The position numbers and the translations under genes are program-made. Source: Dokdonella fugitiva (GTDB lineage: Bacteria; Pseudomonadota; Gammaproteobacteria; Xanthomonadales; Rhodanobacteraceae). Taken from it: a stretch of DNA of 64,000 bases. The notes under the pieces were generated by a model. It was given only the letters and a program-made list of their open reading frames with translations, was not told where the DNA came from and ran no database searches. Numbering within the stretch: position 1 is the first letter of the stretch; each line of letters starts with the position of its first letter. The stretch is taken from NCBI RefSeq assembly GCF_014138265.1, contig NZ_JACGXL010000002.1:744001-808000 (forward strand), written 5' to 3'. Of this stretch, positions 47,904 to 54,287 are shown in pieces.

Positions 47904-49427
47904 TCAGCCATCGAAGCCGTTCGCGAAGATGATGTCGACCGGAGCCGGCAGGGCGAACTTGTACAGCTTGGCGCTGCTCGCGTAGTTGATCATGTAGAGC
48001 GCGCCATCGACGAGGATCGGGCTGCCCCACTTGAGCGAGCCGATCGCGGGCGATGTCCACAGCACCGCGCCGGTCTTCGGGTTGCGCGCGAGCATGCAGG
48101 TACCCGACGCGCACGAGCCCGCGTGATAGAGCACGTCGTTGGCAACGATCGCCGACGTCGAATCTGAGTTCTGCTGCCAGGTCGGCTGCAGGTGCGGTAC
48201 GTTCGATGCGGTGAGCGTGAGCTTGAGGCCGGAGATGCCGTTGCCGTTGCCGACGTAGACCCACGCCGCGCCGTCGCCGTGCGTGTCGACCCAGACGATC
48301 GACTGCGTTTTCATCCAGAACTCGCTGATCGGTACGTCGATGACTTCGATCTCGCCGCCGACACCGCCCGGCGCGCCGGTGCCGCTCATGTCGTCGAGGT
48401 CGATCAGGTGCAGCATCGAGTCCTTGCCGGTCTGCACGCCGATGTGCGCGACGGTGCTGCCCGCGGGCGCGGGCAGGATCGACAGCGACGCCGAACCGAG
48501 ATCGATGTCGCTGCCGTCGAGCTGGTCGTAATTCGTCGGCGTGTGGCTGTCGAGCGGCAGGCCCGCGCCTGCGCCGGTGCCGTCCGGATGCAGCGCGAGC
48601 ACGCTGTCGCCCCAGTTGTGGCCGCCCGTGTTCGCATTGAACTCGCCGTTCGCGGTGGTGATGTAGACGCGATCGGTGCCGGCGTCGTAGACCGCGCCCG
48701 GACGACCCCAGATGCCGCTCTGCGGGCTGTTGCAGCCGTTCGAAGGGATCAGGGTCGTGGTCGTGCTGCACATCGAATTGAACACGCGCGACGTGCCGGT
48801 CGCGAGGTCGATCGTGACGAGGTGGCCCTGGTAGTCGCCACCGTCGCCGACGTAGCCGTTGGTGACCGCGTACAGGCGCGCGACGCCGCCCGACACCGCG
48901 GTCGCGAGCGCGGAAGCGCCTTTCTCGACGCCGGGCTTCAGCGTGATCGTCTGCGGCCACCCGCCGCTCGTGACTTCGGTGCCGCTGCCGATCGCGTACT
49001 TGTGCACCTTGCCGTCGGCGCCATAGCTGTAGACGTACTGGCGATCCGGGTCGATCGCCGGCGAACTCTCGATCGGGGTGTGGCCGCCGGTCGTCGTCAT
49101 CGACCAGACCACGCTGCCGTCGGCGGCGTCGAGCGCACTGATGCGGCCGGTCTGCGCCGTGACGAACAGCAGGTCTTTCGCGCCGCCCGCCGTCGAGATG
49201 CCTTGTGCGAAGACCGGCGCGGCATTGACGCGGCCGGTCAGGGTGACGGCGTACTTCTGTTCGAGCTGCGCGACGTTCGCCGCGGACACCGCGGTCTCCG
49301 CCGTATTGTTCGCGCTGTGCGCAGGTTCGAAGCCCCATTGCGGCCAGTCGGTGGCGAACACGTCGGCGGCGAGGAGCCCGCCGGAAGCGAGCAGGGCGGT
49401 GCGGAGCAGGGCGTGCGAGCGCGTCAT
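47904..49427 (-). CDS. Secreted PQQ-like beta-propeller protein with C-terminal GFD motif (copy 1)
   Basis: The 507-residue preprotein has a signal peptide (ALLRTALLASGGLLAADVFA, about 6-25). It begins WPQWGFEPAHSANN and has repeated propeller strands such as DLLFVTAQTGRISALDAADG, DRQYVYSYGADGKVHKYA and RVYITTANGEFNANTGGHNW, as in quinoprotein-type eight-bladed propellers. Calcium or PQQ-site residues were not identified, so no enzymatic role is claimed. Four Cys in CASGTCMLA and CSTTTTLIPSNGC suggest disulfides outside the cytosol. The extreme C-terminus is VDIIFANGFDG. It is a tandem paralogue of the gene at 49550. Confidence 0.85.
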   Translation of the reverse strand: MTRSHALLRTALLASGGLLAADVFATDWPQWGFEPAHSANNTAETAVSAANVAQLEQKYAVTLTGRVNAAPVFAQGISTAGGAKDLLFVTAQTGRISALDAADGSVVWSMTTTGGHTPIESSPAIDPDRQYVYSYGADGKVHKYAIGSGTEVTSGGWPQTITLKPGVEKGASALATAVSGGVARLYAVTNGYVGDGGDYQGHLVTIDLATGTSRVFNSMCSTTTTLIPSNGCNSPQSGIWGRPGAVYDAGTDRVYITTANGEFNANTGGHNWGDSVLALHPDGTGAGAGLPLDSHTPTNYDQLDGSDIDLGSASLSILPAPAGSTVAHIGVQTGKDSMLHLIDLDDMSGTGAPGGVGGEIEVIDVPISEFWMKTQSIVWVDTHGDGAAWVYVGNGNGISGLKLTLTASNVPHLQPTWQQNSDSTSAIVANDVLYHAGSCASGTCMLARNPKTGAVLWTSPAIGSLKWGSPILVDGALYMINYASSAKLYKFALPAPVDIIFANGFDG

Positions 49428-49549
49428 GGCGGTACTCCGTGGCGCCGCGGGGCGCCTTCAGGGAACCCGCATCCTACGCCGGAAGCGTCGACGAGACGAC
49501 GCGCGGCGTGTCGAAGCTGTGGAGCGGATCACGCCTGCGACGGCGTGCC

Positions 49550-51115
49550 TCAGCGCACCGCGCCGTCGAAGCCGTTGCGGAAGATCACGTCGCCCGCGGG
49601 TAGTGCGAACTTCCACAGCTTGCCGTTGTTGTCGGTGACGTAGAGCGCGCCGTCGACGAGGATCGGGCTCTGCCAGTGCACGTTGCCGATGTGCGGCGAA
49701 CTCCACAGCACGTCGCCGCTGAGCGGATCGTGCGCGGTGACGCAGATGCCGCCGTCCGCGCACGGACCGGCGTGGTAGAGCACACCGTTCGCGACGATCG
49801 GCGAGGTCGACGCGTTCGACGAGCCCGTGCGGCTCCAGCGCATCGTCAACGCGGGATGGTTGCTGCCGTCGAGCCCGAGCTGCAGGCCGGACAGGCCGCT
49901 GCCGTTGCCCGCGAACACCCAGGTCGAGTGGTCCGACGGATTCACCCAGACCGCCGGCTGCTCGCGCATGCGATCGCCCGGAAAACCGTTGCCGCCCTGC
50001 GGCACGTCGATGAGCTGGATCTCGCCGCCGACGTGCGCGGGGCCGCCCTGGCCGCTCATGTCGTCGAGGTCGATCAGGCGCAGCTTGCCGTCCTTGCCCG
50101 CCTGCATGCCGAGGTGCGCGACCGTGCTGCCCACGGGCACGGGCAGGATCGCCATCGACACCGAGCCGAGGTCGGTGTCGCCGTTCTGCAGGCTCTGGAA
50201 GTTCGACGGCGTGTAGCTGTCGAGCGGCAGGCCGTTGCCGGCACCGGTGCCGTCCGCGGCGAGCGCGAGCACGCTGTCGCCCCAGTCGAAGCCGCCCGTG
50301 TTCGCGTTGAACGTGCCGTTGCCGGTCGCGATGTAGACGCGGTTCGTCGCCGCCGACCAGGTCGCGCCGCCGCGGCCCCAGATGCCACTCTGGCGGCCGG
50401 CGCAGTCGTCGGTGCCGGGCGTGCCGTTCAACACGAAGTGGATCGTCTTGTCGCTGCACATCACGTTGAACACGTGCTGCGTGCCGCTGGCGAGGTCGAT
50501 CGAGACGAGATGTCCCTGGTAATCGCCGCCGTCGCCGATGTAGCCGTCGGTGACGACGACGAGATGGTGCGTGTTGCCCGAGCTGGCGATCGTGAGCCCG
50601 GAGGCGCCCTTCTCGACGCTCGTCTTCAAGCTGATCGTCTGCGGCCAGCCGCCGCTCGTGACTTCGCTGCCGTCGCCGATCGCGTACTTGTGCACCTTGC
50701 CGTCGACGCCGTAGCTGTAGACGTACTGCAGGTTGGGATCGATCGCTGGCGATGCAGTCGTCGGTTGCGGCCCGCTCGTCGACTGGTGCCACACCTCGCT
50801 GCCGTTGGCCGCGTCGATCGCCATCAGGCGTCCGTTCTTGCTGAGCAGGAACAACAGGTTCTTGACGCCGTTCGCGGTCGCGACGCCGCCCTGGTAGACG
50901 GGCGCGCTGTCGACTGACGATGCGAGCGCGGCGCCATTCGCGTACACGGAGGCGAGCTGTGCGAGATTGGCGGCGCCGAGCGTCGCCTCGGCGGGATTGA
51001 AGCCGCTGTGCGCGGCGTCGTAGCCGAACTGCGGCCAGCTCGCGGCGTGCGCGTCGGCGATGCCGAGCGCGATCGCGGCGACAAGCGTGGAACGAAGCAG
51101 GGAGGTGCGGGTCAT
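49550..51115 (-). CDS. Secreted PQQ-like beta-propeller protein with C-terminal GFD motif (copy 2)
   Basis: The 521-residue preprotein has a signal peptide (LLRSTLVAAIALGIADAHA, about 5-23) and the same propeller plan as its neighbour at 47904: WPQFGYDAAHSGFNPAEATL, NLLFLLSKNGRLMAIDAANG, LQYVYSYGVDGKVHKYAIGD and YIATGNGTFNANTGGFDWGD. The paralogues share many blocks, so they arose by duplication. The C-terminus is AGDVIFRNGFDGAVR, three residues longer. Cysteines are again paired (CSDKT...DDCAG; CADGGICVT). ATG 51115 lies 155 bases from the divergent sugar-dehydrogenase-like gene. Function is unknown. Confidence 0.85.
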   Translation of the reverse strand: MTRTSLLRSTLVAAIALGIADAHAASWPQFGYDAAHSGFNPAEATLGAANLAQLASVYANGAALASSVDSAPVYQGGVATANGVKNLLFLLSKNGRLMAIDAANGSEVWHQSTSGPQPTTASPAIDPNLQYVYSYGVDGKVHKYAIGDGSEVTSGGWPQTISLKTSVEKGASGLTIASSGNTHHLVVVTDGYIGDGGDYQGHLVSIDLASGTQHVFNVMCSDKTIHFVLNGTPGTDDCAGRQSGIWGRGGATWSAATNRVYIATGNGTFNANTGGFDWGDSVLALAADGTGAGNGLPLDSYTPSNFQSLQNGDTDLGSVSMAILPVPVGSTVAHLGMQAGKDGKLRLIDLDDMSGQGGPAHVGGEIQLIDVPQGGNGFPGDRMREQPAVWVNPSDHSTWVFAGNGSGLSGLQLGLDGSNHPALTMRWSRTGSSNASTSPIVANGVLYHAGPCADGGICVTAHDPLSGDVLWSSPHIGNVHWQSPILVDGALYVTDNNGKLWKFALPAGDVIFRNGFDGAVR

Positions 51116-51270
51116 CGGCAGGCTCCAGGCGCGCGGCGGCGCGCCCCATCGCGGCATCGTACGCCGCCGTGCTGCGCCGGAAGATGACGCACGCCACGGA
51201 TGCGGCCTTCACGTTCGCGGACGCGGCGGCATGGTACAAGGCGCACTCCAGTCCCCTGCGGAGGTCGTCC

Positions 51271-52617
51271 ATGCTGCGTCGGATCGGAACCTGTCTCACG
51301 GCGCTGGTCGCGAGCGCATCGCTGCACGCGGCGATCGACCCCGCCGACCTCGAGCTCGTGCGCTGGCCGGATGCATCCACGACGTTCTCCGAACCGGTCG
51401 CCGTGCGCGCCCCCAACGACGGCAGCGGCCGCACCTTCGTGGTCGAGCGCTGCGACAATCCCGGCAGTTCGAACACGACCGGCCACCTGCGCATCGTCAG
51501 GAACGGCGCCGTGCTGCCGACCGCGTTCCTTTCCGTGAGCGTGAGCTGCACGAGCGAACAGGGTCTGCTCGGCCTCGCATTCGATCCGCAGTTCGCGAGC
51601 AACCGCACGTTCTACGTGACCTACACCGCGACCGGCGGCGGCCTGGGCGACAGCGAAGACCAGGTGCTCGCGCGCTACACGGTGTCCGCCGCGAACCCGG
51701 ATGTCGCCAATCCCACCGGCACGGTGATCCTGCGCGTACCCGACATCGCCGACAACCACAACGGCGGCGACCTCCATTTCGACCACCAGGGCTATCTCAA
51801 CTGGACGATGGGCGACGGCGGCGTGCAGGACGATCCGAACGGATTCGCGCAGTGCACCGGGCGCAAGAAGGCCGACGACAATCCGGCGAGCTGCCATTCG
51901 ACGTCGGGCTCGGGACCGACCTACTACCTGCTCGGCAAGATCATCCGCCTCGACGTGCACGCGGCGACCGCGGCGGCCCCCGCGAACTTCTGCGGCGCGA
52001 CCGCGGGGCAGCCGGCGCCGTACGCGATCCCGCCCGGCAATCCGTTCCGCGATGTCGGCTTGCATCCGCAGGACTGCGCCGAGATCTTCAACTGGGGCTT
52101 CCGCAATCCGTACCGTTTCAGCTTCGATCGCCAGACCGGCGACCTGCTGATCGGCGACGTCGGTCAGGACGCGTGGGAGGAAGTCGACTTCCAGGCCGCA
52201 GGCAGTGCCGGCCAGAACTTCCAGTGGAACACCTGTGAAGGCCGCCACACGTTCCCGGGCGGAACGCTCGGCTGCTCCGGGCCGGCCGGCAGCGTCGTGC
52301 CGAAGCTCGACTACGCACACAACGCGGCGCCGAACGGCTGCGCGGTCAGCGGCGGCTACGTCTACCGCGGGCCGATCGCGCCACTGCGCGGAAGGTACGT
52401 GTTCAGCGACTACTGCACCGGCGACATCTACGTCGTCGCGAACACCGCGGCGACCGTATGGACGTACGAGACGCTCGCGGGTACGCCGGGCCTCAACACC
52501 TACGGCTTCGGCGAGGACGCGCAGGGCAACCTCTACGTCGGCAGCTCGGGCGGCGAGATCTACCGGTTCCATTCGCCGAGCTACGACGACGTCATCTTCG
52601 CGAACGGGTTCGACTGA
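51271..52617 (+). CDS. Secreted glucose/sorbosone dehydrogenase-like propeller with C-terminal GFD motif (copy 1)
   Basis: The 448-residue preprotein has a signal peptide (IGTCLTALVASASLHAA, about 5-21). It then has the GSDH (six-bladed, PQQ-dependent sugar dehydrogenase-like) motifs: GRTFVVERCDNPG, EQGLLGLAFDPQFASNRTFY, HNGGDLHFDHQGYLNWTMGD, NWGFRNPYRFSFDRQTGDLL and IGDVGQDAWEEVDF. Many cysteines indicate a disulfide-rich extracytoplasmic protein. PQQ binding is not certain. The C-terminus is YDDVIFANGFD. GGAGGT lies before ATG 51271. Its stop overlaps the start of the next paralogue (TGATG). Confidence 0.86.
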   Translation: MLRRIGTCLTALVASASLHAAIDPADLELVRWPDASTTFSEPVAVRAPNDGSGRTFVVERCDNPGSSNTTGHLRIVRNGAVLPTAFLSVSVSCTSEQGLLGLAFDPQFASNRTFYVTYTATGGGLGDSEDQVLARYTVSAANPDVANPTGTVILRVPDIADNHNGGDLHFDHQGYLNWTMGDGGVQDDPNGFAQCTGRKKADDNPASCHSTSGSGPTYYLLGKIIRLDVHAATAAAPANFCGATAGQPAPYAIPPGNPFRDVGLHPQDCAEIFNWGFRNPYRFSFDRQTGDLLIGDVGQDAWEEVDFQAAGSAGQNFQWNTCEGRHTFPGGTLGCSGPAGSVVPKLDYAHNAAPNGCAVSGGYVYRGPIAPLRGRYVFSDYCTGDIYVVANTAATVWTYETLAGTPGLNTYGFGEDAQGNLYVGSSGGEIYRFHSPSYDDVIFANGFD

Positions 52618-54287
52618 TGCGCGCGCGCGCGGGAGCCGTGCCGCGTTGCAGGCGCGTCGCTGAATTAGTCGCTCTCGGCGCGGCCACATGCGCGTCCGCG
52701 CAGACCGTGCCGCCGGATCTCGCGCTCGAGATCGTCACCGATCAGGTGACCGCGCCGATCGGCGTGCGCGCGCCGCACGACGGCAGCGGGCGCCTGTTCG
52801 TGATGAGCCAGGCCGGCACGATCCGCATCGTCAAGGACGGCGTGTTGCTGCCGACGCCGTTCCTCACCGTGCCGGTCACGTATCCTGGGTCGGGAGGCAC
52901 GAGCGGCCTGCTCGGCCTCGCGTTCCATCCCAATTACGGCCACGAGGGCGCGCCGCACGGCGACGAGTTCTACGTCGTGTCGATGCGGCCGCCGGGCTGC
53001 ACGCCCGCGGGCACCTGCCTCGGCAGTGGCCCCGACGAGGTGCTCGAACGGTACACGGTGTCGGCCGCGGACCCGGATGTCGCCAACCCGACCGGCACGG
53101 TCGTCATGCGCCTCGCCGACAACGCGCCGCCGTCGTACCACAACGGCGGCGACATTCATTTCGGCCCGGACGGCTATCTCTACATGTCCTCGGGCGACGG
53201 CGGCCAGGAGAGCGGCACGCACTGGCTCGCCGAATGCCTGTGGAAGAAGCCGAACGACACGACCTCGGCGAGCTGCGGCACGAGCTCGACCACGCCGCAA
53301 TACTTCCTGCGCGGCAAGATGCTGCGCATCGACGTCGACACGCGCGGCGGCATCGCCGGCGCCGAGATGTGCGGCACCGCGACCGGCGTCGCGGCCGAGT
53401 ACGCGATCCCGCCGGACAATCCGTACGTCGGCAGCAGTCAGACCTGCGACGAGACCTGGCTGTACGGCTTCCGCAATCCGTGGCGCTGGAGCTTCGATCG
53501 CGCGACCGGCGACGTGTGGATCGGTGACGTCGGCCAGAGCCAGTACGAGGAAGTGGACTTCCGCGCGGCCGATTCGACCGAGCCGCCGTTCTACGGCTGG
53601 CACTGCATGGAAGGCACGGTCGTGTTCAATTCGAGCCAGGCGTGCACGGCGCCGATCGCGCCGAACGTGTTGCCGCTGCTCGAATACACGCATGCGGGCG
53701 GTCGCTGCGCGATCACCGGCGGCTACCGCTACCGCGGCCCGATCGTGCCGTTGCGCGGCATGTACGCCTACGCCGACTCGTGCTCGAGCGAGTTGTTCTT
53801 CGCCAAGCCTGACGAACTCGGCCAATGGAGTTCGACGGTCTGGCGCAACGACGCGAACGGCTACGGCACCTATTCGGGGTTCGGCGAGGACGAGGCCGGC
53901 AACCTCTACGTCGCCAACACCGCGACCGAAGTCGTCTACCGGTTCGTGTCCTCGCAGACGACGATCACGCACACGGTGACGCCGCACGCGGGTGCGGGCG
54001 GCGCGCTGTCGCCGGCGGCGCCACAGGTCGTCGAGGAGGGCGCCACGGTCGCATTCGACGTGCAGGCGGATCCCGGCTACGCGATCGACGCGATCGTCGG
54101 CTGCGGCGGCACGCTCGCGGGCACGCTCTACACGACTGCGGCGATCGTCGCCGACTGCACCGTCGATGCGACGTTCGCCGTGAGCGCGTCGGACATCGTG
54201 TTCCGCGACGGCTTCGACGCGGCGCCCGTGCGGGCGCCGCGGGCGGGACTCACTGCGCGGGTTGTTCCTTCAGCGCGATCGCGTTGA
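52617..54287 (+). CDS. Secreted glucose/sorbosone dehydrogenase-like propeller with beta-repeat domain (copy 2)
   Basis: The 556-residue preprotein has a weak signal (ELVALGAATCASAQ, about 14-27), then the GSDH plan: GRLFVMSQAGTIRIVKDGVL, TSGLLGLAFHPNYGHEGAPH, YHNGGDIHFGPDGYLYMSSG, YGFRNPWRWSFDRATGDVW and IGDVGQSQYEEVDF. From about 448 an InlB B-repeat-like module follows (HAGAGGALSPAAPQVVEEGA, then YAIDAIVGCGGTLAGTLYTT). It has the motif SDIVFRDGFD at about 522-531, but 25 more residues follow, partly encoded by a hairpin and antisense to the SPOR gene. The start at 52617 overlaps the stop of the upstream paralogue. Confidence 0.82.
   Translation: MRARAGAVPRCRRVAELVALGAATCASAQTVPPDLALEIVTDQVTAPIGVRAPHDGSGRLFVMSQAGTIRIVKDGVLLPTPFLTVPVTYPGSGGTSGLLGLAFHPNYGHEGAPHGDEFYVVSMRPPGCTPAGTCLGSGPDEVLERYTVSAADPDVANPTGTVVMRLADNAPPSYHNGGDIHFGPDGYLYMSSGDGGQESGTHWLAECLWKKPNDTTSASCGTSSTTPQYFLRGKMLRIDVDTRGGIAGAEMCGTATGVAAEYAIPPDNPYVGSSQTCDETWLYGFRNPWRWSFDRATGDVWIGDVGQSQYEEVDFRAADSTEPPFYGWHCMEGTVVFNSSQACTAPIAPNVLPLLEYTHAGGRCAITGGYRYRGPIVPLRGMYAYADSCSSELFFAKPDELGQWSSTVWRNDANGYGTYSGFGEDEAGNLYVANTATEVVYRFVSSQTTITHTVTPHAGAGGALSPAAPQVVEEGATVAFDVQADPGYAIDAIVGCGGTLAGTLYTTAAIVADCTVDATFAVSASDIVFRDGFDAAPVRAPRAGLTARVVPSARSR
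54219..54240. terminator. Perfect hairpin inside the 3' end of the second propeller gene
   Basis: GCGGCGCCCG (54219-54228) pairs with CGGGCGCCGC (54231-54240). Such hairpins normally follow a stop codon; here the open frame runs through it to 54287. It lies just outside the stop of the convergent SPOR gene (54250) and may act on both transcripts. Confidence 0.7.

Follow-up and report, generated by a model that had tools for sequence, protein, structure and literature searches.

Introduction

The C-terminal domains that address proteins of Bacteroidota to the type IX secretion system (T9SS) are folded and comprise about 80 residues. Type II secretion systems (T2SS) have likewise been associated with recurrent tails: in the available excerpts of the source, GlyGly-CTERM/rhombosortase proteins are stated to use a T2SS, and MYXO-CTERM is a clade-wide tag of dozens of proteins per genome, which reach the surface by T2SS (PMC11980579). 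As for individual cargoes, an exposed nine-residue loop of PelI from Dickeya acts as a signal, its interaction with GspC and GspD being essential (PMC7949064, excerpt), and the PDZ domain of EpsC is required for secretion of one cargo, VesB (PMC12369372, excerpt). Here we describe a nine-residue tag with the consensus D-x-[ILV]-F-x-[DN]-G-F-[DE], borne by four adjacent genes of a 64,000-nucleotide stretch of DNA (the window, G000:C2:744001-808000, of the 4.77-Mb genome G000, genus g1) and by many unrelated exported proteins of the same bacterial order. We consider it probable, at roughly 0.6, that this tag, a short linear signal, targets proteins to a dedicated second T2SS (T2SS-A) after their export by the Sec or Tat pathway.

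If so, the tag would be like the T9SS domains in serving as a C-terminal address read by one secretion machine, although it consists of nine residues and not of a folded domain. With GlyGly-CTERM it has in common that it recurs as a short tail on many exported proteins unrelated to one another, and that some carriers of the two tags are related (M36 peptidases); however, the Gly-Gly, membrane helix and basic end of that tail are absent, as are the invariant cysteine, helix and arginine-rich end of MYXO-CTERM. The OutC-PelI and EpsC-VesB pairs are similar to the present case in that a T2SS with a GspC-PDZ is concerned, but their signals are parts of folded domains and substrate-specific, whereas the tag is one linear motif across unrelated proteins.

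Frequency, position and form of the tag

At the DNA level the motif is matched 162 times in G000, and the same pattern reversed only once. The proteins of 690 genes called on 864 kb of contig C2 contain 29 matches, against none for the reversed motif and a mean of 0.15 for 400 permuted motifs, so that a chance origin of the tag is ruled out; the top permutation, with 22 matches, is taken to reflect the same residues in a shifted register. A nucleotide-level element is likewise ruled out, since synonymous codons vary and the AT-rich genome G201 encodes the same peptide with other codons. One protein of G201 (L134:9222-10178, minus strand) ends in two consecutive tags, IFRDGFD and IFFNGFE.

Part of the 162 matches of G000 was inspected, namely 30 loci and, in addition, 71 protein-level matches in stretches of this genome; together with 40 matches from ten other tag-rich genomes, the latter form a protein-level set of 111. 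The motif lies no more than 25 residues from the C-terminus in 26 of the 29 matches of the 864-kb sample and in 98 of the 111 (61/71 in G000 and 37/40 in the ten other genomes). It is exactly C-terminal in 34 of the 111, and 0-22 residues follow it in the C-terminal cases. The aspartate two places before [ILV]F, although outside the search motif, is nonetheless present in 92 of the 111 matches.

The remaining 13 matches are more than 25 residues away from the end. In four proteins (L104, L111, L115 and L129) the tag immediately follows the signal peptide, while other internal tags are found deeper inside, between domains, some of them preceding Gly- or Pro-rich linkers. A single C-terminal cut therefore does not explain the tag, whereas a binding motif does. 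An earlier note on the window, made from its sequence, had proposed a new C-terminal sorting, anchoring or processing signal; the data support such a signal, but not one that is strictly C-terminal.

Strict motif counts omit variants. Looser forms, with Y or W in place of the last F or without the G, also occur at the C-termini of exported proteins, and in the 864-kb sample the looser pattern adds 10 further C-termini where 0.8 would be expected (one of these ten proteins is, by eye, without a signal-peptide-like start). One tail of locus L095 (G206) has the extended form IFTDGFESGDTSAWTTTVP, perhaps an ancestral or longer state of the tag. No model of the tag was found in Pfam or NCBIfam, in agreement with the earlier view that the tail is no recognised sorting tag; ten tails scanned to E = 10 gave two weak matches, both off the tag.

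Carrier proteins and independence of the tag from their folds

Of the 111 matches 90 were kept (complete, 120-1300 aa, within one piece, duplicates dropped), and 78 of those were used for comparison. When aligned together, these 78 proteins have the tag block alone in common, with a mean column identity of 6%. They fall in 73 Pfam and 56 NCBIfam families, no family accounting for more than 14, and the families (25 listed per database) include beta-helices, FG-GAP and other propellers, subtilases, M12/M36-like peptidases and phospholipase C. Common ancestry of whole proteins thus does not account for the tail, as had been argued from the window alone.

The carriers are mostly exported. Signal peptides were scored throughout with a home-made scorer, which found signal-peptide-like starts in 23/29 tagged and 222/626 untagged genes of the 864-kb sample; such starts without later membrane helices occur in 21/29 versus 137/626 (Fisher 2.5e-8). 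The enrichment at C-termini of exported proteins on which the earlier proposal depended is therefore present. Twin-arginine-type (RR) N-termini are found on the tagged proteins L105 and L106, and the tag is thus not bound to one inner-membrane route.

Several of the 78 proteins match families that are named for other sorting tags: choice-of-anchor Q (14), rhombosortase-dependent M36 (5), myxosortase-dependent M36 (2), T9SS-dependent M36 (2) and LPXTG-anchored peptidase (2). By analogy, the tag looks like one more sorting-tag choice, apparently substituting for the GlyGly-CTERM, MYXO-CTERM, T9SS or LPXTG tags of relatives.

The four tag-bearing ORFs of the window and their tails (Table 1) are as first described, the assignment to two propeller families being borne out by Pfam and export by signal-peptide-like N-termini on all four. 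The PQQ-type pair shares 60% identity and the GSDH-type pair 50%; since both pairs are tandem duplications, the four proteins count as two independent cases. The second PQQ-type protein probably starts at 51115 (MTRTSLLRS...).

Table 1. Tag-bearing genes of the window, with the positions of their tags
Feature	Position	Strand	Basis or remark
PQQ-type beta-propeller protein, exported, 507 aa, tag-bearing	47904..49427	-	ORF; Pfam PQQ_2 3.3e-10
Tag DIIFANGFD	47910..47936	-	1 residue before C-terminus; protein ends DIIFANGFDG
PQQ-type beta-propeller protein, exported, tandem paralog	49550..51157	-	ORF; Pfam PQQ_2/PQQ
Tag DVIFRNGFD	49565..49591	-	4 residues before C-terminus; protein ends DVIFRNGFDGAVR
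GSDH-type beta-propeller protein, exported, 448 aa, tag-bearing	51271..52617	+	ORF; Pfam GSDH 1.5e-21
Tag DVIFANGFD	52588..52614	+	exactly C-terminal; protein ends DDVIFANGFD
GSDH-type protein, exported, tandem paralog, extra sequence separating propeller from tag	52617..54287	+	ORF; Pfam GSDH
Tag DIVFRDGFD (in SDIVFRDGFD)	54192..54218	+	22 residues before C-terminus

It had been recognised that the idea would fail if the tail occurred only on propellers, as the last strand of their fold. Besides the many families concerned, insertions argue against this: one copy of the GSDH pair has an insertion between propeller and tag and the other has none, and each of the five PQQ relatives from this order terminates in the tag, which in three is preceded by a long additional stretch. 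The best named isolate among the 11 loci with relatives of the first PQQ-type protein is Dokdonella fugitiva (63% identity), so that genus g1 is probably Dokdonella and the window's family probably Rhodanobacteraceae. Ten of these loci were compared, and the strict motif is found in none of the five labelled Chloroflexi, Anaerolineae, Acidobacteria (ORF end uncertain), Fibrobacteria and Gemmatimonadetes. The Fibrobacteria relative (L250) looked as if it had a T9SS tail, but NCBIfam did not confirm this.

Phospholipase C provides a further comparison, for which 18 of 30 loci, those above the family cut-off, were used. In tag-poor genomes most orthologs stop no more than about 25 residues past an SDPAxG-type end, and the strict tag is found in 0/13. 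In tag-rich genomes it is found in 3/5 (G000, G044 and G014), where it comes after the SDPAxG-type end, and G050 has the variant LFVGDFE. The orthologs of tag-poor genomes thus mostly end near the point where the tag of the tag-rich ones starts, which again does not fit a last strand.

Distribution of the tag

In the window's family, 28 of 117 genomes are tag-rich (12-194 matches) and 89 tag-poor (0-5). Across the order, 107 of 250 genomes have at least one strict match, and none of the 12 families sampled is without such a genome. Of 292 genomes from the rest of the phylum, 17 have 1-2 matches (18 in total, compared with 13 for the reversed control), and the tag is thus essentially confined to this order. 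At 30 loci inspected in genomes with 1-3 matches, the motif is C-terminal at many and elsewhere at some.

The second type II secretion system

Two T2SS are encoded in G000: T2SS-B, an xps-like cluster (L142), and T2SS-A, located in two places, with gspC-D-E-F at L141 and gspG-H-I-J-K-L-M-N at L241. The GspD proteins of the two systems share 25% identity. GspD, E, F, G, H, I, J, K and L of T2SS-A score over the NCBIfam cut-offs, while GspC falls slightly short (99.1 versus 101.6 bits) and GspM is weak (27 bits). Pfam recognises GspN, as well as GspC with T2SSC and a borderline PDZ domain (PDZ_2, 27.4 versus 27), and a profile of GspC-A finds PDZ domains of known structure, those of PulC (5hj1) and EpsC (2i4s, 2i6v). 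Judged by these matches, the core gene set of T2SS-A is complete and includes a predicted GspC-PDZ.

Proteins adjoining gspC-A end in degenerate tags, DDTIFRYGAE (L141:7090-8631, minus strand) and DLIFANDLE (L143:6592-8052, plus strand). We also would like to point out a group of related, exported-looking proteins without a Pfam match, of which two (L141:13485-14903 and L142:6631-8136, both minus strand) are encoded at the two T2SS loci of G000 and are 36% identical to each other, and a third (L160:11563-13131, plus strand) is found in G008. By analogy these are possibly surface-layer (NpdA-like) proteins.

Co-occurrence of the tag and T2SS-A

That tag-rich genomes have a second, distinct GspD was first suggested by a census of this secretin in 80 genomes. 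For the window's family, T2SS-A was called with a GspD-A profile (A3) at 900 bits or more, or from a contig-end fragment (G079). It is present in 26/28 tag-rich and 0/89 tag-poor genomes (Fisher 5e-24, or 4e-18 if a divergent system discussed below is counted; both uncorrected for relatedness), and the two tag-rich misses, G037 and G114, are 85-87% complete and in about 800 contigs. The same association is seen within a single genus, g9, where tag-rich G075, G088 and G100 all have T2SS-A and tag-poor G008, G032, G061 and G111 have none. It recurs in another family (f2, probably Xanthomonadaceae; genomes at least 90% complete), in which only G195 and G314, out of 53 genomes, have five or more tags (10 and 12, respectively): T2SS-A is found in these two and in 0/51 others. 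The latter include one genome with a single motif match, and their secretins score lower, up to 559 bits.

For the order as a whole, 250 genomes were tabulated with a GspD-A threshold of E 1e-180 and at least five matches as the definition of tag presence. Among the 200 that are at least 90% complete, 49 have both tags and T2SS-A, 119 neither, 6 tags only and 26 T2SS-A only. The table scores contig-end partial T2SS-A genes as lacking (G217, G225, G245, G265 and G293), and three of the six tags-only genomes (G217, G225 and G245) have such a partial GspD. Hence the tag mostly implies T2SS-A, and the converse does not hold. The complete genome G134 (f9, g41) has neither a GspD match nor tags, though its family is otherwise tag-rich.

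Other components behave similarly. A second GspG (170-193 bits) is found in 15/16 of the T2SS-A-positive genomes checked, the exception being G075 (93% complete), and in 0/6 of those without T2SS-A. In a tree of GspE-A, the sequences of families f1, f2 and f9 each cluster by family, G025, which has the divergent system, stands apart from f1, and the deeper forks are unresolved; the clustering by family fits vertical descent with joint losses.

Comparison with known sorting systems

The tails inspected have none of the features of PEP-CTERM (PEP motif, membrane helix, basic end) or of LPXTG signals (LPXTG-like motif, helix, basic end), and the distinction that the earlier note drew between the tail and these signals, as well as GlyGly-CTERM, is upheld. 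Ten tails scanned against NCBIfam and Pfam matched neither a PEP-CTERM model nor a T9SS tail model. Exosortase and rhombosortase were sought in a panel of 42 tag-rich and 38 tag-poor genomes. Exosortase (E up to 0.001) is found in 22/42 tag-rich and 9/38 tag-poor genomes, and in 0/4 of the window's genus. Rhombosortase exceeds its cut-off (84 bits) in 0/42 tag-rich and 5/38 tag-poor genomes (p = 0.02); because two tag-rich genomes fall just below it (G142 with 82.7 and G016 with 80.1 bits), a mutual exclusion of tag and rhombosortase is no more than hinted at. The tag-less genome G025, from a tag-poor genus of the window's family, encodes a rhombosortase (131 bits; L155:11822-12427, minus strand) immediately next to gspC of a divergent T2SS-A (T2SS-A'); here a related machine goes together with another way of sorting.

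With respect to secretion routes, type I substrates have a C-terminal signal and no N-terminal signal peptide, which does not agree with the signal-peptide-like starts of most tagged genes. Type II substrates have an N-terminal Sec or Tat signal, seen on most, not all, tagged genes, and a T2SS in the genome, here specifically T2SS-A, with the exceptions listed below.

Proposed mechanism and alternative explanations

We propose that tagged proteins would cross the inner membrane via Sec or Tat, as their N-termini suggest, and would fold in the periplasm with the tag exposed, in most cases at a free end. The tag would then be recognised by T2SS-A, which would carry the folded protein across the outer membrane. 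This targeting role is suggested by the excess of motif matches over the reversed control, the unrelated secretory carriers, the co-occurrence with T2SS-A and the PDZ matches of GspC-A. The likeliest reader would be the PDZ domain of GspC-A, since PDZ domains bind short end peptides, as well as internal hairpins, and since the EpsC PDZ is needed for VesB; moreover, sequences of the form x-[DN]-G-x are favoured in tight turns. It is possible, though we hold this part tentatively and at somewhat less than even odds, that the tag is a portable nine-residue address, read by this PDZ domain and able to function at either end of the mature protein as well as between domains. While secretion machines of this kind are known, a shared linear address for a T2SS would be new. 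Neither such a tag nor a linear T2SS signal was found among the literature matches listed, in which subscription papers are thinly covered; longer motif words had no literature match, and shorter words gave only noise among the matches listed.

Several observations weigh against a tag dedicated to T2SS-A. The prevailing view, as expressed in the available part of one source, is that T2SS signals are structural, with no common linear sequence apparent (PMC7949064). The link between tag and T2SS-A is a correlation among related, hence not independent, genomes, and other genes with the same distribution could be responsible instead. Six tag-poor genomes of genus g26 have the divergent T2SS-A' (GspD 634-671 bits). 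In genus g35, T2SS-A is over the threshold in 26/30 genomes, all with 0-2 tags, and of the 26 order genomes with T2SS-A and fewer than five tags 15 belong to g35 (several with zero tags) and 11 to other genera; a common tail was not apparent in 400 kb of a g35 genome. Conversely, five or more tags occur in several genomes in which no T2SS-A GspD was found, even as a fragment: G172 (7 tags, 97% complete), G221 (50 tags, 96% complete, about 530 contigs), G159 (19 tags, 90%) and, at lower completeness, G169, G266 and G269. None was found in G200 and G220 either, with 3 tags each. Finally, the phospholipase C of tag-rich G088 is without the tag. A variant tag was looked for in tag-less G168, and none was seen in 400 kb. 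The genomes with T2SS-A but no tag indicate that T2SS-A is probably older than the tag or works without it, or else that a further reader is required.

The main alternative is that the tag would serve as a surface-retention or processing signal for another receptor or protease, with T2SS-A providing no more than the passage through the outer membrane, as is the case for GlyGly-CTERM and MYXO-CTERM proteins. Such a role would agree with the naming of relatives of tagged proteins after such tags (choice-of-anchor Q, the M36 types, LPXTG), with the distribution of rhombosortase, bearing in mind the two genomes just below the cut-off, and its place beside gspC in G025, and with the tag-less T2SS-A of g35, where a separate reader might be missing. 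Yet the tails have no transmembrane helix or basic end, the number of trailing residues varies, internal tags are unsuited to one C-terminal cut and no candidate enzyme was found, and we regard this explanation as rather unlikely. In this respect the expectation that one processing protein would be the partner of the tail has given way to another, the best-supported partner being the second T2SS and not a processing enzyme. It is considerably less probable that the tag docks finished proteins on a surface layer (NpdA-like) or another surface polymer. According to the excerpt available, npdA surface-layer genes are located near gsp clusters, their carriers including Dokdonella, Rudaea and Tahibacter (PMC10765051), which makes the Pfam-less pair at both T2SS loci of G000 a candidate for such a layer; however, a relative also adjoins the T2SS of tag-poor G008, and the other tag-rich genomes that were examined showed no relative at their T2SS-A loci.

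Sorting of an exosortase or rhombosortase type, acting on an unusual substrate tail, is very improbable and largely refuted by the census, for although exosortase is somewhat commoner in the tag-rich part of the panel and a rhomboid comes close to the rhombosortase cut-off in G142 and G016, exosortase is missing from 20/42 tag-rich genomes, including those of the window's genus, and the cut-off for rhombosortase is reached in no tag-rich genome at all. From the window, where the four proteins are two tandem pairs, it might have been suspected that the tagged proteins have a common ancestor or that the tag is the final strand of a fold they share, but this is refuted by the more than 50 families that carry the tag and by the insertions between fold and tag.

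Implications

How T2SS choose their cargo is described as an open question in the available part of the literature cited above (PMC7949064). If the targeting role proposed here is true, a tag with up to 194 matches per genome, paired with one of two T2SS, would make cargo choice directly testable, and part of the secretome of a bacterial order would become predictable from sequence. The tag would also offer a small export tag for biotechnology. Above all, the T2SS, thought to be without a common linear signal, might then be found to use one in this order, an outcome that we consider conceivable but still somewhat doubtful.

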